Positions 5,951-40,120 of a stretch of 64,000 nt of DNA are shown here, one piece after another. This DNA is from Anaerobaca lacustris. GTDB lineage: Bacteria; Planctomycetota; Phycisphaerae; Sedimentisphaerales; Anaerobacaceae. Under the pieces are notes generated by a model. It saw only the letters and a program-made list of their open reading frames with translations. It did not search any database and was not told where the DNA came from. The position numbers and the translations under genes were made by a program. Location of the stretch: the NCBI RefSeq assembly GCF_030012215.1, contig NZ_JASCXX010000002.1:124001-188000 (forward strand), given 5' to 3'. Numbering within the stretch: position 1 is the stretch's first letter; each line of letters starts with the position of its first letter.

Positions 5951-7279
5951 CTACTTGATCCTGGCCTTGAGGGCCTGGTAGCCGTAGTGCATCATCAGAT
6001 GGTCCAGGATGATCAGCGCCGTGAAGTTCTCGGCCACCGGCCAGATCCGCGCGACGATGGTCGGGTCGCGTCGCGTGATGGCCGCCAGTTGCGTGTTCTC
6101 CTGGGTGTATTTGTCGATGGTCTTCTGCGGCTTGTCGATTGTGGGCGTCGGCTTGACCGCCAGGCGCGCGACGATGGGCTGGCCCGTGGTCAGCCCGCCC
6201 GTGATGCCGCCGGCGTTGTTGGACTCGAAGACCACCTCGCCGTCGACGGCCCGCATCTGGTCGTTGTTCTGATAGCCGGTCATGTCCTTGACCGCGAACC
6301 CCGCGCCGATCTCGACGCCCTTGACCGCGCCGATGCCGAGCATGCGGCCGAGTTCGGCGTCGAGCTTGTTGAAGACCGGCTCACCCAGTCCCACCGGGGC
6401 GCCGAGGACGACCACTTCGACCAGTCCGCCGGCCGAATCGCCGCCGGCCGAGATCCTGTTGCAGGCGTCGACCATGGCCTGTCCGGCGTCGATGTCGGGA
6501 CAGTTGACCACCGCGTGGACCCCGTACTTGTCGCGGACCTCCGCGGCGCTCATCTGCGGGGCCTTGTCGCGAATCGGGTCGATCTCCTGCTCGATCTGGG
6601 CCATGACCGCCGCCTTCTCCAGGAACCGCATGTCCATCGTGATGCGGCCCTTGACGTAGACCTCCTGATAGAACGGGTCGAGGGCGTGCCGCATCGCCTT
6701 GTAGCGGTCGGTGGATTCCAGCGCCCGCTCGTAGGGCACGTCGGGACATCGGACGCCGGCGATCTCCTTGACATAGGAGAAGACCTCGATCCCGCATTGC
6801 TTGAGGATCTTCTTGGCGACGTAGCCGGCCGCAACGATCGTCGATGTGTACCGCCCGCTGAAGATGCCGGCGCCGATCGCGTCGTCGTCCGGGCCGTACT
6901 TGACGAAGCTCGCATACGAGGCATGGCCGGGTCGCGGCGTGCGGTTCGTGTCCTGGTACTGCTTGATGTGGATGAAGTGCCGGTCCAGATTCGGGATCAG
7001 GATGACCAGCGGTGTGCCGTTGGTGTGGTTCTTGTTGCCGGCGTTCTCGATCGTGTCGGCGGCGTTGAGACCCGCGTAGATGATCGGCAGGTCCGGCTCC
7101 TTGCGCGGGCTGCTCAGCTCGTCGGCGCCGGGCTTTCGCAGCAGGAGATCGCCGTAGATTTCCTGCTCGGTGAGCAGCATCCCCGGCGGCACGCCCTGGA
7201 GCGTACTGGAGAGCCCTTCCTGATACGAACCGCCTGCGACGGTAAGCTGAAAGTTGTGTCCAAGGTGACATCCAAGCAT
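5951..7279 (-). CDS. aroC: Chorismate synthase-like protein, divergent
   Basis: 442 residues, longer than the usual 350-400. Chorismate synthase converts 5-enolpyruvylshikimate-3-phosphate to chorismate using reduced FMN. Family landmarks: RPGHA at residues 116-120, an SGRYT segment where most enzymes have SSARET, VAAGYVAKKIL, the central PVGLGEPVFNKLDAEL block, and SNNAGGITGG near the C-terminus. The N-terminal signature usually read as GESHG appears here as GGSYQEG (residues 16-22), so the first catalytic histidine is replaced by Tyr19. There is also an insertion after residue 70. ATG at 7279 is preferred over TTG at 7297 because GGAAAGGGG lies at the right distance upstream. It lies 130 nt downstream of aroA on the same strand, so the two probably form an operon. 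The family call is firm; activity is less certain. Confidence 0.85.
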   Translation of the reverse strand: MLGCHLGHNFQLTVAGGSYQEGLSSTLQGVPPGMLLTEQEIYGDLLLRKPGADELSSPRKEPDLPIIYAGLNAADTIENAGNKNHTNGTPLVILIPNLDRHFIHIKQYQDTNRTPRPGHASYASFVKYGPDDDAIGAGIFSGRYTSTIVAAGYVAKKILKQCGIEVFSYVKEIAGVRCPDVPYERALESTDRYKAMRHALDPFYQEVYVKGRITMDMRFLEKAAVMAQIEQEIDPIRDKAPQMSAAEVRDKYGVHAVVNCPDIDAGQAMVDACNRISAGGDSAGGLVEVVVLGAPVGLGEPVFNKLDAELGRMLGIGAVKGVEIGAGFAVKDMTGYQNNDQMRAVDGEVVFESNNAGGITGGLTTGQPIVARLAVKPTPTIDKPQKTIDKYTQENTQLAAITRRDPTIVARIWPVAENFTALIILDHLMMHYGYQALKARIK

Positions 7280-32504: not shown

Positions 32505-33149
32505 ATGCGGATCGCCGACATGATCGGTAGCGTCGTTGCACTCGGCCAGTCCTGCCGGTTCGATCTCGACCACGCATCTCGCGTCAGCCGGCTGGCCTTG
32601 CGGCTGTTCGATCAGCTTCAACCGTTGCATGAGATGGGCAACACCGAGCGGATCTGGCTGCGGGCGGCCGCCTTGCTGCACGATGTCGCCAAGCCCCAGG
32701 ACCCCAAAGACCATCACAAGGTGGCCCGCGATCTCATCCTCCATGCCGCCTCGTTGCCGTTCCGGGCGGAGGAGCGGACGATCATCGCCCTGGTGGCCCG
32801 CTACCACCGCGGTTCGCTGCCGGAGGGCGACCATGCCTGCTTCCGCGACCTGGACGCCGAATCCCAACTCTATGTGGCGAAGCTGGCGTCACTGCTGCGC
32901 CTGGCCGACGGACTGGACGAGGGACGCGCCGGGCTGGTGGACGACGTATTCTGCCAGATTCGCCCGCGCTGTGTCCTTCTGCGGGCGCTCAGCCGGGACA
33001 CCGTGAGCCTCAGAAAGGTGCTGAGAAAGGCCGATCTGTTCGGCCGCACGTTCGGTCGCGATGTCGTCGTCGGTGTCGAGATCGTTCCGGCGCATCTCGA
33101 TTTGGGCCTTGATTCCAAAGCGGCCCCGGCCTATGCTGCTGCGAGGTAG
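32505..33149 (+). CDS. HD-domain protein, Ppx/GppA-associated type
   Basis: 214 residues. The HD core is RFDLDHASRVSRLALRLFDQ (first His), WLRAAALLHDVAKPQDPKDH (HD pair), HHKVARDLILHAASLPF, IIALVARYHRGSLP and VAKLASLLRLADGLD. The order and spacing match the C-terminal HD part of Ppx/GppA phosphatases, here as a free-standing protein with the HD pair intact. It is first in a run of genes that includes CHAD, Ppx and Ppk1. A phosphohydrolase acting on nucleotides or polyphosphate is plausible but not shown. ATG 32505 follows a GGGG-containing leader. Confidence 0.85.
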   Translation: MRIADMIGSVVALGQSCRFDLDHASRVSRLALRLFDQLQPLHEMGNTERIWLRAAALLHDVAKPQDPKDHHKVARDLILHAASLPFRAEERTIIALVARYHRGSLPEGDHACFRDLDAESQLYVAKLASLLRLADGLDEGRAGLVDDVFCQIRPRCVLLRALSRDTVSLRKVLRKADLFGRTFGRDVVVGVEIVPAHLDLGLDSKAAPAYAAAR

Positions 33150-33183
33150 GTAACGCAAATCGAGAAGCTGTTGAGAGACCGCC

Positions 33184-33924
33184 GTGGGACGTCTGGTCAT
33201 TCTTTCGGGGCCATCCTGTGTGGGCAAGGGGCCGCTCTATGCGGCGTTGAAGAGGCTCTATCCCCGGACCGCCGGCCGGCTGGACAAGTTCGTGCTGTAT
33301 GACAGCCGGGCGCCGCGTCCGGGCGAGGTGGACGGGATCGACTTCCATTTCCGCCGTCGCGATGAGATCGAAGCCTTCCGCGACCGGCCTGATTTCCGCG
33401 TCTTCGAGGTCCGAAACGACTTGCAGGCGATGGATACGCGGGAGCTGGAGCGGATGCTGGCGGAATCGGTCGTCTTTTTTGAGGGCAATCCGTTCATCGG
33501 GTCACGGTTGCTCGATCTCGCCCAGGCGCAAGGGGTCGCCTCCCTGAGCATTTTCCTTTCGCCGTTGTCTCGTGAGGAGATCGTCGAGCTGAACGGGCGG
33601 GTCCCGAGCGTCTCTGTGCCCGAGTTCGTCACCGATGTGATGCGGCGCAAGCTCCTGCGGCGTACGACGCGACAGAAGGGGATTCTCTCACAGGCGGACC
33701 TGGAGAATATCGAGGTCCGGGCCCAAAGCGCCTATGGCGAGATGCAGCAGGCGTGGCGGTACGACCACGTCATCTGCTGCCATGACGGCGAAGACAGCGA
33801 GCACTGGGATGCGTTCTACTATCCCATCGGCGACGCGCGCAAGGCCGTGCAGGCGTTTGCCGCCCTGTTGGAAGGTGACGCGCCGGACGGCGTCGAGAAA
33901 TGGGAGCACGACCTGATCGCGTAG
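33184..33924 (+). CDS. Guanylate-kinase-like nucleotide kinase fold protein with altered P-loop
   Basis: 246 residues. The N-terminus LVILSGPSCVGKGPLYAAL matches the guanylate kinase P-loop region, and LDKFVLYDSRAPRPGEVDG with IDFHFRRRDEIE matches its GMP-binding region. The Walker A Ser/Thr after the lysine is Gly16, so the classical Mg-coordinating hydroxyl is missing. The C-terminal 60 residues (AYGEMQQAWRYDHVI) are partly family-like. Starts at GTG 33184, 34 nt after the HD gene. It may phosphorylate a nucleotide, or may have become a binding protein; phn-type ribose-bisphosphate kinases are a related possibility. Confidence 0.7.
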   Translation: MGRLVILSGPSCVGKGPLYAALKRLYPRTAGRLDKFVLYDSRAPRPGEVDGIDFHFRRRDEIEAFRDRPDFRVFEVRNDLQAMDTRELERMLAESVVFFEGNPFIGSRLLDLAQAQGVASLSIFLSPLSREEIVELNGRVPSVSVPEFVTDVMRRKLLRRTTRQKGILSQADLENIEVRAQSAYGEMQQAWRYDHVICCHDGEDSEHWDAFYYPIGDARKAVQAFAALLEGDAPDGVEKWEHDLIA

Positions 33925-33953
33925 CGTTTGAATGGAACGGAGTATGGGACCCG

Positions 33954-35036
33954 ATGGATGAAGACCGGGAACATCGCAAAGCGGCCGTGACGACGGCCGG
34001 TTCAAGTTGTCGGCTCGTGGCCTGTCAGTATCTGAGCGGGCAGCTCGACGCCCTGGTGACCCAGATGGCCGGCGTCCGGCGAGACGAGGATATCGAGCCG
34101 GTGCATCAGGCGAGGGTGGCGTCGCGACGGCTGCGCGTCGCGCTGGGGATGTTCGCCGACTGCTTCGATGCGAAGAAGGTGGGCCGGTGGCGCAAGCGAC
34201 TCCGAGGGCTGACGCGGGGCCTTGGCCCGGCGCGGGACCTGGACGTGCACATCGCTTTCGTGGAAGGCTTCCTGGCCGGCCTGGAGGAGAAGGACCGAAC
34301 GCACCGCCCTGGGATCGAGCGTCTTCTGCTGCGGCTTCGACAGGACCGTCTTGCCGCCCAGCCCGAGGCCGTCGAGACGCTGGACAGACTGAACAAGGGC
34401 GACCTGCTGGCCGAGATGCACGGCGAGATCGAGAGGGCCCGCTTCCTGCTGCGGACGCAGAGCGTCCCGTTGCAGAGTCCTGTGGTCTTCGAGCGGGCGG
34501 CCGCCCACATCCTGCGGCGTCAGCGCGGTCTATTGGCCGCGGCGCCGGTGCTGGACGATCCGGACGATGTCGCCGGCCATCATCGGGTCCGAATCGCCGC
34601 CAAGAAGCTGCGGTATACGATGGAGGTCTGCATTCCGGCTTTCGACAAGCAGCTTGCCGGTGCGATCAAGGCCGTCAAGAAAGTGCAATCGTCTCTCGGA
34701 GACATTCACGACTGCGACGTCTGGATCGCGAACCTTGGGACTTTCGTCGAGCAGGAACGGGAGCGGACGGTCGCCTATTTCGGGCATGTCCGACCGTTCA
34801 ACCGACTCCAGCCCGGACTCGAATTCCTTCGCGCCGAGCGGGCGAACCACCGCCGGCAGGCCTTCGCCGAACTCGTCGAGTACTGGCGACGCCTCGACGA
34901 CGAGCGGTTCTGGAGCGACCTGGAGACGATGCTGGAAACGTACGTAGAGATCGCGCAGCAACCCGATCCCGCTACACAGGACGAGCCGATCCATGGCACG
35001 GAAGAAGAGATCGAAAACGATAGCCCTGCTCAGTGA
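33954..35036 (+). CDS. CHAD-domain protein
   Basis: 360 residues. CHAD (conserved histidine alpha-helical domain) proteins bind polyphosphate through conserved His and basic residues. Visible signature: EPVHQARVASRRLRVALGMF with the following GLTRGLGPARDLDV, and the second half HHRVRIAAKKLRYTMEVC with SSLGDIHDCDVWI. Both four-helix halves are present. ATG 33954 opens MDEDREHRKAA; the longer frame from 33900 overlaps the previous gene and is less likely. Its end overlaps the metallophosphoesterase gene by 44 nt. It very probably works with Ppk1 and Ppx in polyphosphate handling. Confidence 0.92.
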   Translation: MDEDREHRKAAVTTAGSSCRLVACQYLSGQLDALVTQMAGVRRDEDIEPVHQARVASRRLRVALGMFADCFDAKKVGRWRKRLRGLTRGLGPARDLDVHIAFVEGFLAGLEEKDRTHRPGIERLLLRLRQDRLAAQPEAVETLDRLNKGDLLAEMHGEIERARFLLRTQSVPLQSPVVFERAAAHILRRQRGLLAAAPVLDDPDDVAGHHRVRIAAKKLRYTMEVCIPAFDKQLAGAIKAVKKVQSSLGDIHDCDVWIANLGTFVEQERERTVAYFGHVRPFNRLQPGLEFLRAERANHRRQAFAELVEYWRRLDDERFWSDLETMLETYVEIAQQPDPATQDEPIHGTEEEIENDSPAQ

Positions 35037-36369
35037 CGTTCACGGCAATCTGCCCGCGCTGGAGGCCGTGCTCGAGGACGCGGCGCACCGGCAGATCGCC
35101 GAGATCTGGAATCTTGGGGACATGCTCGGATATGGGCCGTTCCCCAACGAGGTGCTCGGACGGCTGCGGGAGGTGGCGAAGGTCAATATTGTGGGCAACT
35201 ACGATCGCAAAGTGCTCGATTTCGCGCGCAAGCGGGACAAGTGGAAGCGCAAGAAGCCTCCGGCCAAGTTCATTGCGTTTCAGTGGAACGATGCCCATCT
35301 CGACGCGGCCGGCAGGGACTTTCTCACGTCGCTGCCGGAGCAGGCCCGCCGCACGGCTGGCGGCCTCGACGTGCTGCTGGTACACGGCAGTCCGGCCTCC
35401 ATCGACGAGTTGCTTGGCTCCGATACGCCCAACCAGCGATTGCGTGAGCTGGCCCGGTTCGCCCAGGCGGACATCGTGGTCTGCGGGCATTCGCACGAGG
35501 CATTCGTCCGCCACGTCGAGGAGGTGTGGTTCGTCAATCCGGGCAGCGTGGGCCGTCCGGAGGCCGGCGACTGGCGGGCCTCGTATGCGTTGCTCGAGTT
35601 CTCCGACGGGGGCCTGAAGGTGGGGCACCGTCGTGTCCCCTACGACATCGATCGGGTGGCCCGCGCCGTTCACGCCGCGGGTCTGCCGGGCGAGTTCATC
35701 GACGTCTTCCGCAAGGGCAAGAGCCTCGACCAACTTCGCGATGACGGTGAAGCGGCCGACGGGACCCACGAGGCACAGTCTGACAAGCGTCTGGAGGCCG
35801 TCCTGGCCCTGGCGACGGATTGTCAGTACGAGCGCGAGCACACGCACCAGGTGACGAGGCTGGCCCTGGAGATCTTCGATGCCTTGCAGGAGGCTCATCG
35901 GATGGGTCCCGAAGAGCGGTTCCGGCTTCACTGCGCGGCACTGCTGCACGACATCGGCTGGGTGGAAGGCCCCCAGGGGCACCACAAGACCGCGATGAAG
36001 CTGATCGTGTCGGATCCGAGGCTGCCGTTTCGGCGGTCGGAGCGGCAGATGATCGCACTGATCGCCCGCTACCATCGTAAGGCGCTGCCGGATGTGCGCC
36101 ACAAGTATTATGGGAACCTCACCGACGCCGAACAGCATTGCGTGCGGGTGCTGGCGGGCATTCTCCGGGTGGCCGACGGCCTCGATCGCAGCCACAACCG
36201 CGTCGTACGCAGCGTTCAGTGCCGGGTGTCGGACCGGCGAATCGTTATGACCTGCGAGGTGCGAGGTCCGGCCGATGCGGAACTGGCCGCGGCGGAGAAG
36301 AAGGCCGATCTGTTCCAGGAAGCCTTCGGACGGCCTCTGGAGTTGAAGGCAGCCGGCGGGCAGGGGTAG
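34993..36369 (+). CDS. Metallophosphoesterase-HD domain fusion
   Basis: 458 residues. Residues 1 to about 235 form a calcineurin-like phosphoesterase of the YfcE/MJ0936 class: LLSDVHGNLPALEAVL (DxH), NLGDMLGYGPFPNEVL (GD), NIVGNYD (GNxD), LLVHGSP and VVCGHSHEAF (GHxH). Residues about 265-458 are an HD domain close to that of the free-standing HD gene upstream: REHTHQVTRLALEIFDALQ, HCAALLHDIGWVEGPQGHHK, LIARYHRKALP and LAGILRVADGLDRS. This joins two phosphohydrolase types in one chain, with all metal ligands apparently intact. It overlaps the CHAD gene end. Confidence 0.88.
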   Translation: MARKKRSKTIALLSDVHGNLPALEAVLEDAAHRQIAEIWNLGDMLGYGPFPNEVLGRLREVAKVNIVGNYDRKVLDFARKRDKWKRKKPPAKFIAFQWNDAHLDAAGRDFLTSLPEQARRTAGGLDVLLVHGSPASIDELLGSDTPNQRLRELARFAQADIVVCGHSHEAFVRHVEEVWFVNPGSVGRPEAGDWRASYALLEFSDGGLKVGHRRVPYDIDRVARAVHAAGLPGEFIDVFRKGKSLDQLRDDGEAADGTHEAQSDKRLEAVLALATDCQYEREHTHQVTRLALEIFDALQEAHRMGPEERFRLHCAALLHDIGWVEGPQGHHKTAMKLIVSDPRLPFRRSERQMIALIARYHRKALPDVRHKYYGNLTDAEQHCVRVLAGILRVADGLDRSHNRVVRSVQCRVSDRRIVMTCEVRGPADAELAAAEKKADLFQEAFGRPLELKAAGGQG

Positions 36370-36407
36370 GGCCGTTGCCATTGTGGCGCGGACGGAGCAG
36401 GCTGGAT

Positions 36408-37979
36408 ATGATGACGACGGACGACAAATCGAAAGCGCCGGGTGTGGCCGAGACGATGGCGGTCATCGACATCGGCTCGAATTCCATCCGCATGATGATC
36501 GGGCAGGTGGTGCCCGACGGGCGCGTCGAGATCCTCGAACGGCTGCGCCGGGTGGTCCACCTGGGCCAGGACGTCTTCCGCAGCGGGCGCATCCGCGCCG
36601 AGACCCTGCGCAGCGCCGTGGGGATTTTGCGCGATTACCGTCACGTCCTGAACACCTACGGGGTCCATCGGGTCCGCGCGGTGGCGACCAGCGCCGCGCG
36701 CGAGGCGGCCAACGGCGACACCTTCGTCGACCGCGTCCTGATGGCCGCCGGCCTGGAGGTCTCGATCATCAGCGTGACCGAGGAGGGGCGGCTCACCGTC
36801 TCGGCGGTGCGCGAGGCGGTGGGGGAGAAGCTGCTGGGGCGCGGCAGGGCCCTGGTGGTCGAGGTCGGAGGCGGCAGCACCGTGCTGAACCTGCTCAGTC
36901 GCGGAGAGATCACCGCGTCGCAGAGCCTGCCCACCGGCTCGGTCCGCATGCAGGAGGTGATGGCAACGACGACGGAACGGGCCGACCAGGCCGCCCGTCT
37001 GATTCAGGGGCAGGTCGCCAGCGCGATCTCGGCCTTTCGCAGTCTTCTGCCGCTCAAGAGCGTTCAGACCTTTGTCGCGGTGGGCGGCGACGCGCGGTGG
37101 GCGGCGACCCAGGTCGGTAAACCTCTGGGCGCCGACCGTCTCGAGGCGGTGTCGGCCGAGGCGTTGGGCAAGCTGCTCGATCGCTGCCGGCGTCTGACGG
37201 CCGACGAGCTGGCGCGGTCGTACAACCTGCCGTATACCGACGCCGAAACGATTACGCCGGCGCTGCTGGTCTATCAGGTCCTGCTGGAGGCGACGCGGGC
37301 CAAGCGGATGATCGTGACGGATGTGTCCATGCGTGACGGGCTGCTCCTGGAGTTGGCGCGCGACGCGGCGGGAACGAAGGACGACGCGGCGTATCGGGAG
37401 ATCATCCAGTCGGCCCAGGGCATCGCGCAGAAATACCAGGTGGACGTGGCCCACGCCGAGCAGACGCGCTCGCTGGCGGTGCAACTGTTCGATCAACTGA
37501 CCGGCGAGCACCGACTGGGCGAGCGTCACCGGCTCCTGCTGGAGGTGGCCGCCATCCTGCATGAGATCGGGACCTTCGTGGCCAGCCGGGCCCATCACAA
37601 GCATAGCTTCTACCTGATCGTCAACTCGGAGATCGTCGGACTGACCCAGGACGAACTGGCCGTGGTGGCCAACGTGGCGCGCTACCATCGTCGCAGCCGG
37701 CCGAAACCTTCGCACCTGGACTACATTTCACTGCCGCGGGAGCGCCGGATGATCGTGAACAAGCTGGCGGCGCTGTTGCGGATCGCCGAGTCGCTGGACA
37801 GCAGCCGGACGCAGCAGATCCAGACGCTCGAGTCCCGCATCGACGGCAACGGCCTGGTCGTTTCCGTCAAGGCCGGCGGCGATTTCACGCTCGAACGCAG
37901 GGCGATCGCGGACGTGGCGGACATGATGCTGGATATCTATGGTCTGGACGTGCGGCTGGAGGAGGCGGTCCGGCCGTGA
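36408..37979 (+). CDS. Ppx/GppA phosphatase family protein with C-terminal HD
   Basis: 523 residues. The N-terminal ASKHA domain has AVIDIGSNSIRMMIGQV (phosphate-binding loop 1), VRAVATSAAREAANG, VVEVGGGSTVLNLL and VAVGGDARWAATQ. The C-terminal domain is HD-like, with HAEQTRSLAVQLFDQLTG, AAILHEIGTFV (HE in place of HD), HHKHSFYLIV and VARYHRRSRP. E. coli Ppx and GppA carry the same HE variation. Activities are hydrolysis of polyphosphate or of pppGpp; the two cannot be separated by motif. ATG 36408 has GGAG about eleven bases upstream; a second ATG follows directly. Its stop overlaps Ppk1 as GTGA. Confidence 0.92.
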   Translation: MMTTDDKSKAPGVAETMAVIDIGSNSIRMMIGQVVPDGRVEILERLRRVVHLGQDVFRSGRIRAETLRSAVGILRDYRHVLNTYGVHRVRAVATSAAREAANGDTFVDRVLMAAGLEVSIISVTEEGRLTVSAVREAVGEKLLGRGRALVVEVGGGSTVLNLLSRGEITASQSLPTGSVRMQEVMATTTERADQAARLIQGQVASAISAFRSLLPLKSVQTFVAVGGDARWAATQVGKPLGADRLEAVSAEALGKLLDRCRRLTADELARSYNLPYTDAETITPALLVYQVLLEATRAKRMIVTDVSMRDGLLLELARDAAGTKDDAAYREIIQSAQGIAQKYQVDVAHAEQTRSLAVQLFDQLTGEHRLGERHRLLLEVAAILHEIGTFVASRAHHKHSFYLIVNSEIVGLTQDELAVVANVARYHRRSRPKPSHLDYISLPRERRMIVNKLAALLRIAESLDSSRTQQIQTLESRIDGNGLVVSVKAGGDFTLERRAIADVADMMLDIYGLDVRLEEAVRP

Positions 37980-40120
37980 ACGGCCCCAACGAAATGCTTG
38001 CGAGTGCTATGGCAAAGAAGAAAGATCTGAAATCGGCGGAGTGGTTCATCAATCGCGAGTTGAGCTGGCTCGAGTTCAACGACCGGGTCCTCCAGGAAGG
38101 GCGCAGCCGGGACGTGCCGCTGGGCGAACGGCTGAAGTTTCTGTCGATCGTCAGCTCCAACCTCGACGAGTTCTTCATGATTCGCGTGGCCGGCCTCAAG
38201 CAGCAGAAGGCGGCCGGCGTGCGGAAGAAGGACGCCAGCGGCCTGACGCCTGCGCAACAGTTGTTCTTCATCAGCGGCAAGGTCCAGGAGATGGTGGCCC
38301 AACAGACGGCCGCCGTCGCCGAGGCTTTCGAAGAACTCAAGGCGCACGACTTCCAGTTGGTGCGACGGGACGAGTGGACGCCGAAACAGCGTCAGTTCCT
38401 CGCCCGCTTCTTCGCGAGCGAAATGCTGGCGGTGCTGACGCCGCTGGCGGTGGAGGAGCTCGATCCGTGCCCGCTGCTGCCGGGGCTGCAACTGTTCGTG
38501 GCGCTGCTGGTCTGCACGTCGCGGAGCGAAGCGTCGCCGCAGAAGCTGGTGGTGGTCCCCGTTCCCGTCTCGCTGCCGCGGTTCGTGAACATCCCGGCCG
38601 AGAAGGGCGTCTATGTCGCGCCGTTGGAGGAGGTCCTCCTCGACAACGCCCGCGCCATGTTCGGCGGATGCCGGATCGGCAGGGCGGCGGTCTTTCGCAT
38701 CACGCGCGACGCCGACGTAGCCATTCAGGAGGATGAGGCGCCGGACCTGCTCAGCACGGTTCAGGATGCGGTGCACGCCCGGAAACATCGGGGCGTGATT
38801 CGCCTGGAGATCAGCGCCCGGCCCGATTCTCGCATCAAGCAGTGGCTCACTTCAACGCTGCGGCTGCTGCATCACGACGTGTATGAGATCGACGGTCTGC
38901 TCGACGCGCGGGCTTTGATGCAGTTGCTCGACGTCCCCCCGGTGCAGGGCCTTTGCGCCGCCGAGTGGCCCCCGCAGGAGCCGGCCGACCTGATCGGCGC
39001 CGAGGAGCTGTGGCCGGCGCTGCAGGGGCGTGACGTCATGTTGTTCCACCCATACGAGCGATTCGATCCGGTCGTCGAGATGGTTCAGTCGGCGGCCGAG
39101 GACCCGTCCGTCCTGGCGATCAAGCAGACCCTCTACCGGACCAGCGGGCAGTCGCCCGTGGTCGGCGCCCTGGCCCGGGCGGCCGAGAACGGCAAGGAGG
39201 TCACCGTCCTGGTGGAGCTGAAGGCCCGCTTCGACGAGGCCAAGAACGTCAACTGGGCGAGGCAGTTGGAGGACGCGGGCTGTCACGTGATCTACGGCAT
39301 CGCAGGATTCAAGACCCACGCCAAGGCGCTGCTGGTGATTCGCCGTGAGGCGGCCCGCATTCGACGTTACGTTCACCTGGGCACGGGCAATTACAACGAC
39401 CGAACCGCGCGGCTCTATTCCGACATCGGCCTGATGACCAGCGACGACGAGCTGGCGTCGGACGTCGCGGCGTTCTTCAATCTGCTCACCGGGCTTTCCG
39501 AGGCGGTCGAATGGCAGCGGCTCGTCATCGCACCGACCGACCTGCGCACGAAACTCGGCGAGCTGATCGAGCGCGAGATCCGGGTCTCGACGCCGGATCG
39601 GCCCGGCCTGATCATGGCCAAGATCAACTCCCTCGAAGACAAGGGCATCTGCCAGGCCCTGTACGCGGCGAGCCAAGCGGGGGTGGATGTCCAGCTCAAC
39701 GTTCGAGGGATCTGTTGCCTGCGGCCCGGGGTCAAGGGGCTCTCCGAGCGGATCGCCGTTCGCTCGATCGTGGACCGGTATCTCGAGCACGCCCGGGTCT
39801 TCTACTTCGCCAACGGGGGCCATGAGGAGGTCTATCTCAGCAGCGCCGACTGGATGCGACGCAACCTCGACCGGCGGCTCGAACTGCTGTTTCCCGTTCG
39901 CGACGCACGGATTCGCCGCCGTCTGACGGGCATTCTCAGGATGTTCTTCCGGGACAACGTCAAGGCGTGGGAATTGCTCAGTGACGGGCAATACCGCCGC
40001 GTCACGCGGAAGGGTCGGGCCGTCCGGGCCCAGGAGACGTTCTATCGCGACGCCGTGGCGGCGGTCCGGTCGGCCGAGCGCGCCACCGGCACGTTTCGGC
40101 CCTTGACGCGGCCGAAGTGA
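37976..40120 (+). CDS. ppk1: Polyphosphate kinase 1
   Basis: 714 residues, normal length. It makes polyphosphate from ATP reversibly. Landmarks: N-terminal INRELSWLEFNDRVLQEG, SSNLDEFFMIRVAGL, phosphoacceptor region GFKTHAKALLVIRRE (His448 the likely phosphorylated histidine), VHLGTGNYNDRTARLYSD, a second conserved His616 in ANGGHEEVYLSSADWM, and RICCLRPGVKGL-type text near residue 580. It starts with GTG overlapping the Ppx TGA, so the synthetic and the degradative enzyme are translationally coupled. Ends the core cluster. Confidence 0.97.
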   Translation: MNGPNEMLASAMAKKKDLKSAEWFINRELSWLEFNDRVLQEGRSRDVPLGERLKFLSIVSSNLDEFFMIRVAGLKQQKAAGVRKKDASGLTPAQQLFFISGKVQEMVAQQTAAVAEAFEELKAHDFQLVRRDEWTPKQRQFLARFFASEMLAVLTPLAVEELDPCPLLPGLQLFVALLVCTSRSEASPQKLVVVPVPVSLPRFVNIPAEKGVYVAPLEEVLLDNARAMFGGCRIGRAAVFRITRDADVAIQEDEAPDLLSTVQDAVHARKHRGVIRLEISARPDSRIKQWLTSTLRLLHHDVYEIDGLLDARALMQLLDVPPVQGLCAAEWPPQEPADLIGAEELWPALQGRDVMLFHPYERFDPVVEMVQSAAEDPSVLAIKQTLYRTSGQSPVVGALARAAENGKEVTVLVELKARFDEAKNVNWARQLEDAGCHVIYGIAGFKTHAKALLVIRREAARIRRYVHLGTGNYNDRTARLYSDIGLMTSDDELASDVAAFFNLLTGLSEAVEWQRLVIAPTDLRTKLGELIEREIRVSTPDRPGLIMAKINSLEDKGICQALYAASQAGVDVQLNVRGICCLRPGVKGLSERIAVRSIVDRYLEHARVFYFANGGHEEVYLSSADWMRRNLDRRLELLFPVRDARIRRRLTGILRMFFRDNVKAWELLSDGQYRRVTRKGRAVRAQETFYRDAVAAVRSAERATGTFRPLTRPK

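Follow-up and report, generated by a model that had tools for sequence, protein, structure and literature searches.

Two additional HD-domain proteins and a guanylate-kinase-like protein in a polyphosphate gene cluster of Anaerobaca lacustris

The window analysed here is a 64,000-nucleotide stretch of the genome of Anaerobaca lacustris, a planctomycete of the Phycisphaerae and the order Sedimentisphaerales (contig NZ_JASCXX010000002.1, positions 124,001 to 188,000). Six consecutive + strand genes at positions 32505-40120 of the window encode a free HD-domain protein, a guanylate-kinase-like protein (GKL), a CHAD protein, a metallophosphoesterase-HD fusion (MPE-HD), the exopolyphosphatase Ppx and the polyphosphate kinase Ppk1. 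Open reading frames (ORFs) and Pfam matches agree with the families that a preliminary description of this DNA had named. The cluster is probably a polyphosphate (polyP) operon to which metal-dependent phosphohydrolases and a polyP-linked phosphotransferase, GKL, have been added.

Under this reading, Ppk1 would make polyP from ATP, the CHAD protein would bind polyP chains or granules and Ppx would trim the polymer. The free HD protein and MPE-HD would most likely be metal-dependent phosphohydrolases whose substrates are short polyP or polyphosphate-bearing nucleotides; the MPE half would contribute a second hydrolytic site. GKL would act as a phosphotransferase and is tied to polyP through neighbourhood and co-occurrence. 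The six genes may form a single transcript; they are tightly packed, with two gaps (34 and 41 bases) and three overlaps (25 bases as listed, 44 and 4) (Table 1).

Table 1. Genes of the polyphosphate cluster (positions in the window)
Gene product	Position	Strand	Features
Free HD protein, 214 aa	32505..33149	+	PF21447 family; complete H-HD-H-H-D signature
GKL (guanylate-kinase-like), 246 aa	33184..33924	+	Guanylate-kinase fold; P-loop GPSCVGKGP; HDGEDSEHW motif; not a canonical guanylate kinase
CHAD protein, polyphosphate-binding family	33900..35036	+	Assigned by Pfam only (no NCBIfam assignment)
MPE-HD fusion, 458 aa	34993..36369	+	SapH/YfcE-type metallophosphoesterase at about residues 8-216; PF21447 HD at about residues 260-455
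Exopolyphosphatase Ppx with C-terminal domain III	36411..37979	+	HD dyad reads HE
Polyphosphate kinase Ppk1, 714 aa	37976..40120	+	Assigned by family scores

The CHAD protein scores 181.1 bits (PF05235 gathering cut-off 25.6), the Metallophos_2 match of MPE-HD 98 bits (cut-off 27) and Ppx 127.2 bits against PF02541 (Ppx-GppA; gathering cut-off 27). Ppx remains below the TIGR03706 cut-off (189.2 versus 307 bits); this 300-position model matches only the catalytic part. Ppk1 has four PP_kinase domains over the Pfam cut-off and reaches 820.9 bits against a TIGR03705 cut-off of 465.85. The mechanical ORF of Ppx opens at 36138 and its real start is likely the ATG at 36411; the CHAD gene probably starts near 33954, judging from similarity to orthologues.

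The free HD protein, the HD half of MPE-HD and domain III of Ppx all match PF21447 (Ppx-GppA_III), with 60.7, 55.7 and 109.4 bits respectively over a gathering cut-off of 27.3. Pairwise identity is 42% between the free HD and MPE-HD, 32% between the free HD and Ppx and 30% between MPE-HD and Ppx; the corresponding local scores are 349, 242 and 259, while none of 500 shuffles per pair scored above 61. Chance similarity is excluded because the pair scores far exceed those of the shuffles. An origin in unrelated families was also rejected, as eleven other PF01966 proteins of the genome do not exceed 18 bits when compared with a profile of the HD set. A slightly different profile, built on the three domains of the window, gives 142-334 for the set and 46 for E. 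coli Ppx. The segments HHK, ARYHR and LLR.A..LD occur in this order in all three domains, as had been described, with the last best written as [LI]LR.A..LD. At the sequence level, the three domains share one ancestry, and the single ancestor proposed in the preliminary description is upheld.

A tree of 39 HD domains, such as that description had called for, separates all 18 Ppx rows from all 21 rows of free or MPE-fused HDs (support 100/99). The upstream free HDs form one group (six rows, 97/90) and seven of the 12 HDs standing before Ppx form another (96/89); the remainder do not resolve. This pattern is consistent with an initial divergence from the Ppx domain and a later duplication. The tree has flagged long branches, E. 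coli Ppx above all, and is silent on whether the free or the Ppx form arose first. Among solved structures, both extra HDs are closest in sequence to domain III of Deinococcus radiodurans Ppx (PDB 8jgo), which differs from them in its HE dyad and in being part of a Ppx.

In the sampled genomes, hardly any example of the extra-HD form lies outside the window's order. PF21447 is found in 167 of 294 genomes of the phylum; three matches occur only in the window's genome and two in 12 genomes. Outside the phylum, where no general search was made, extra HDs were met only in NPL-UPA2. In a genome of the same genus (L032, about 6700-7150), an apparent remnant of the free HD gene, a C-terminal half with an in-frame stop, lies upstream of GKL. 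G003, in our interpretation, retains no more of this gene than a decayed C-terminal half.

The six ligands of the H-HD-H-H-D set are intact in all 21 free or MPE-fused HDs. The Ppx HDs of the window's order are different: 15 of 17 read HE, with the last D replaced by E or K in nine of these 15, and the full set is present in two. The window's own Ppx carries an HE dyad and E in place of the last D, and therefore lacks the dinuclear ligand set. According to the available text of a review, the six-residue set is diagnostic of a dinuclear site and is carried by YqeK, a hydrolase of diadenosine tetraphosphate (Ap4A) (PMC8177086). The two extra HDs of the window share the H..HD..H..H..D signature described there for YqeK but belong to PF21447. 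Their NCBIfam matches at E <= 0.01 include no YqeK-named model; whether the library has one was not checked. Conservation of the ligands suggests that the extra HDs may be catalytic.

A different role for these domains has to be considered. The free HD and its MPE-fused counterpart could be non-catalytic polyP-binding or regulatory modules that anchor Ppx and the phosphoesterase to the granule or adjust their activity there. Both are relatives of Ppx domain III, and the available text on Deinococcus Ppx reports that C-terminal truncation enlarges the active cleft, which indicates a structural role (PMC11234463). In four of the 12 clusters with an HD gene before Ppx, that gene has no MPE half, an arrangement that would suit a subunit. 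However, binding alone would need no metal ligands, and these are retained in 21/21 extra HDs whereas the dyad has been lost in 15/17 Ppx copies of the order; a purely non-catalytic role appears unlikely.

The polyP genes of the cluster are conserved together. Among 61 genomes (the window's own and 60 relatives), CHAD and PF21447 are found in an identical set of 18, and Ppk1 in those 18 and in G012. CHAD, Ppx domain III and Ppk1 are all present or all absent in 60 of the 61, which fits the dedicated polyphosphate system proposed earlier. Because CHAD and Ppx domain III share exactly 18 genomes, the data suggest that genomes of the window's order acquire or lose the polyP kit as a whole.

Gene order was inspected in 17 of the 18 PF21447-bearing genomes, the window included; G004 was left out as its cluster is split over contigs. 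Ppx and Ppk1 are adjacent in all 17 clusters, CHAD lies within the same cluster in 14, and an HD gene stands between CHAD and Ppx in 12 (eight with MPE, four without). The order is thus conserved outside this genome. The upstream free HD is present in six clusters, and in G040 CHAD is preceded by a longer HD protein. GKL is present in seven; the GKL-CHAD pairs of G044 and G048 are located away from Ppx-Ppk1. All six genes occur together in four of 17 clusters, all from a single genus. The whole set therefore exists beyond the window, but its presentation as one unit was overstated, since GKL and MPE come and go. Outside the order, 19 Ppx stretches of the phylum, some of them cut by contig ends, contain Ppk1 in five cases, CHAD in two and an extra HD in none.

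The MPE half of the fusion is over the cut-off of TIGR00040 (YfcE-type; 71.8 versus 56.25 bits). Residues D15, H17, D43, N69, H131, H166 and H168, which we take to be the metal ligands, are invariant in 8/8 sequences. The predicted structure of MPE-HD has a local confidence score (pLDDT) of 85. Its best fold match is SapH (PDB 3qfm, titled as a streptococcal asymmetric Ap4A hydrolase; E 8e-17, 30% identity), and Deinococcus Ppx is among the other matches. SapH aligns to residues 9-223, and the window protein differs from it in the fused C-terminal HD. Hydrolysis of Ap4A by the MPE half would be one possible reading of this similarity in fold and sequence. The open-licence papers yielded nothing useful on SapH itself.

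GKL resembles guanylate kinase (Gmk) in its fold, its P-loop lysine and residues R42, R45 and E48, which are invariant in 83/83 GKL sequences; R42 and R45 are presumably phosphate-side residues. Guanylate_kin (PF00625) scores 30.5 bits over a cut-off of 25.2 and covers residues 2-64 only. The predicted model (pLDDT 91.8) has 8egl as its best Foldseek match (E 3.3e-12, TM score 0.64 by query). GKL differs from Gmk in three respects: the guanine-side motifs are replaced, a proline stands two residues after the P-loop lysine (K+2), and the second half contains inserts. The motifs E..A..FG..YGTP and EID, which we take to form the guanine-reading side, are found in none of 11 GKL rows sampled from the 83, versus 16 of 16 guanylate kinases. 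The proline is present in 82 of 83 GKL sequences. Proline at K+2 is unusual for a P-loop kinase, in which the backbone NH at this position usually holds phosphate; it may fit an unusual donor. GKL is thus modelled as a phosphotransferase of guanylate-kinase fold with a putatively altered acceptor pocket.

The motifs HDGEDS and ENWDAF look nearly invariant across GKL sequences, although part of this invariance reflects selection, as the named GKL loci were picked with these two patterns. A distant homologue found without the patterns keeps NHDGEGSPNW.

GKL is not the only guanylate kinase candidate of the genome; a standard one is encoded elsewhere (155.5 bits). This bears on the simplest explanation of the cluster, an ordinary ppk-ppx operon with passengers, in which GKL would be a redundant guanylate kinase and the HD and MPE proteins would have housekeeping roles. 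The fold of GKL and its presence in just seven of 17 clusters agree with such an explanation. It is nonetheless very improbable: besides the separate standard enzyme and the missing guanine-side motifs, GKL reaches 48.2 bits against a TIGR03263 guanylate kinase cut-off of 160.45, and the HD before Ppx is retained in 12/17 clusters.

In a collection of named genomes, 123 GKL relatives were confirmed; the best 80 of the 123 are 49-79% identical over nearly the full length, and six of these 80 appear to repeat contigs of the relative-genome set. The lineages include Bacteroidota, Acidobacteriota, Verrucomicrobiota, Bacillota, Synergistota, Armatimonadota, Pseudomonadota and others. Of the 294 genomes sampled from the window's phylum, two carry GKL, the window's own among them; in one Bacteroidota order, two of 119 genomes do, including the centre genome. 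Because the distribution is sporadic across many phyla, it points to horizontal transfer of GKL. Among viral contigs, none of 16 pattern matches was confirmed as a relative by tblastn.

Neighbours were counted at the best 80 of the 123 named loci. CHAD or CYTH lies within two genes of GKL at 14 of these, in five taxonomic groups: Planctomycetota (6), Magnetococcales (4), NPL-UPA2 (2), Woeseiaceae (1) and a 'Deltaproteobacteria' metagenome-assembled genome (1). Sequence extends at least 2 kb on both sides at 52 of the 80 loci and less than 2 kb on at least one side at 28. A weak home-made CHAD profile does not explain the count, as 20 more divergent seeds returned the same 10 CHAD loci; the CYTH profile is built from five close sequences, so other CYTH neighbours were possibly missed. 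In a GKL tree of 83 rows, 17 of them labelled for a CHAD/CYTH neighbour, the starred branches (SH-aLRT support only) force at least five changes of label, gains or losses.

Co-occurrence links GKL to CHAD more broadly. A strong GKL match (E below 1e-60) is found in 10 of the 61 genomes; CHAD is present in nine of these ten versus nine of the 51 others (Fisher p 2e-5, with shared descent ignored). Two genomes with distant GKL homologues, G037 and G047, were counted as non-GKL, and both are without CHAD. Among 48 GKL-bearing genomes chosen through the 80 loci, 37 carry CHAD, versus six of 14 control genomes; CHAD or CYTH is adjacent to GKL at four of the 48 chosen loci. The Bacteroidota among those 48 have CHAD in 14 of 16 cases, versus 20 of 117 GKL-less genomes of one Bacteroidota order (p 4e-8, for sets not matched in taxonomy and with shared descent ignored).

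Individual GKL loci show further arrangements. At all four Magnetococcales loci (L115, L116, L117 and L126), GKL is followed directly by CYTH and then by a gene for a symmetrical Ap4A hydrolase; this ApaH-type gene is over the NF001204 cut-off in 4/4 and below the own cut-off of the TIGR00668 apaH model. In NPL-UPA2, CHAD is fused to an HD_4 domain (L104 7863-9284 and L076 1887-3308), beside a PF21447 HD gene and GKL. The HD_4 domain of L104 has a partial RelA/SpoT match below cut-off (TIGR00691, E 6e-16) and matches MESH1 structures (E 4e-10). Gene order at L104 is a thymidylate-kinase-like gene, an unassigned ORF, the CHAD-HD_4 fusion (SpoT/MESH1-type), a PF21447 HD and GKL. In the 'Deltaproteobacteria' genome (L109 8359-11343), CHAD, a ParA-like ATPase, GKL and CYTH are consecutive, which recalls the published ppk-parA-CHAD group. 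At L047 (8207-8932), a distant GKL homologue (32% identity) lies near a 978-aa methylase/restriction-like ORF and integrase-like ORFs, identified by eye, and no polyP gene was found near it; it is possibly a mobile subfamily.

A special case of the favoured reading is a polyP-coupled alarmone circuit, in which dinucleoside polyphosphates (NpnN) or (p)ppGpp would be removed by MPE-HD and the free HD, with GKL producing or recycling a nucleotide related to them. The MPE fold is closest to SapH, an Ap4A hydrolase, and the available text of the review gives YqeK, another Ap4A hydrolase, the same ligand set as the HDs (PMC8177086). The ApaH-type gene that follows GKL and CYTH in Magnetococcales and the CHAD-HD_4 fusion of NPL-UPA2 (L104 and L076; SpoT/MESH1-type in L104) point in the same direction. 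On the other hand, specificity cannot be read from MPE and HD folds, the SpoT-type fusion is found in one candidate phylum only (two loci), ApaH is found in Magnetococcales only, and neither occurs in the window. Such a circuit is possible but doubtful. The nucleotide signalling role proposed for this cluster is accordingly no more than suggested by these features, and the polyP part of the proposal stands better.

Clusters of CHAD with ppk or ppx are already known. CHAD proteins bind polyP and are often found beside polyP genes, according to the available text of PMC6537752; the window's CHAD protein would be a polyP binder by family membership. A second paper, as far as its available text goes, describes a folD, ppk, parA and CHAD gene group in Acidithiobacillus and a cluster of SixA, PPX, dTMP kinase and CHAD in biomining archaea (PMC10892726); a third, likewise in its available text, reports ppk and ppx in one operon in Methanosarcina (PMC6821655). 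The published CHAD clusters resemble the window in placing CHAD beside polyP enzymes, in archaea near a gene of nucleotide-kinase fold; their available text does not mention a free Ppx-III-type HD, an MPE-HD fusion or a guanylate-kinase-like gene. The E. coli ppk-ppx operon also has adjacent ppk and ppx and a Ppx with domain III, but its order is ppk then ppx, and CHAD, free HD, MPE-HD and GKL are not annotated within the 10 kb seen.

In the open-licence literature searched, no paper on the extra HDs, MPE-HD and GKL as a set was found by title or start of abstract. Guanylate kinase appears there, as far as the text was available, in one report of a SpoT cluster, not with CHAD, and the papers found for CHAD with ppGpp name no fusion in their titles or the starts of their abstracts. 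CHAD with Ppk or Ppx, and in archaea with a dTMP-kinase gene, was already in print (available text of PMC6537752 and PMC10892726). What appears new, within the literature found and the text available, is the presence of extra hydrolases in a polyP operon, together with a kinase-like family that had not been linked to polyP.

The flanking genes encode DUF1570 and PRC-barrel proteins upstream and, downstream, a PilZ protein and a weakly rubrerythrin-like protein (below cut-off). No polyP link was seen for any of them. Terminators are at background level. A defence island is not supported, as there are only two marginal PADLOC matches (E about 6e-4), on MPE-HD and Ppk1.

Several points weigh against the reading of a polyP operon with added phosphohydrolases and a phosphotransferase. 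Ten of the 17 clusters have no GKL and nine no MPE, one GKL genome (G038) is without CHAD, and no CHAD or CYTH was found at 66 of the 80 named GKL loci. A Sigma-70 promoter scan of the cluster found none (0.8 expected) and so gives no promoter support. The MPE-HD model was built on eight sequences and has a predicted template modelling score (pTM) of 0.56. The ligand argument is also limited in reach. E. coli Ppx and Deinococcus Ppx both read HE; among 19 hand-chosen Ppx of the phylum outside the order, eight read HE, ten read HD and one was not called by the pattern. A general rule that Ppx loses the dyad and free HDs keep it fails there; since 10/19 other Ppx keep HD, an intact dyad is not the mark of a free-standing enzyme. 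The C-terminal part of Ppx is structural or regulatory in the available text of PMC11234463, and for this reason its HD paralogues may bind rather than cleave. No biochemistry on the six proteins was found in the literature.

Polyphosphate and nucleotide alarmones are considered to be connected during starvation and stress; to our knowledge, few dedicated genes are known to join them. The most far-reaching reading, which we regard as speculative and rather improbable, is that GKL is a new phosphotransferase family that uses polyP or a derivative instead of GMP. Together with the free HDs, it would form a recurring circuit that couples polyP to Ap4A or (p)ppGpp, with ApaH or the CHAD-SpoT-type fusion taking part in other phyla. 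The free HDs with intact sites, the MPE-HD fusion, the conserved kinase-like family and the CHAD-SpoT-type fusion are candidates for the link between polyP and alarmones, and each of them is open to expression and assay.

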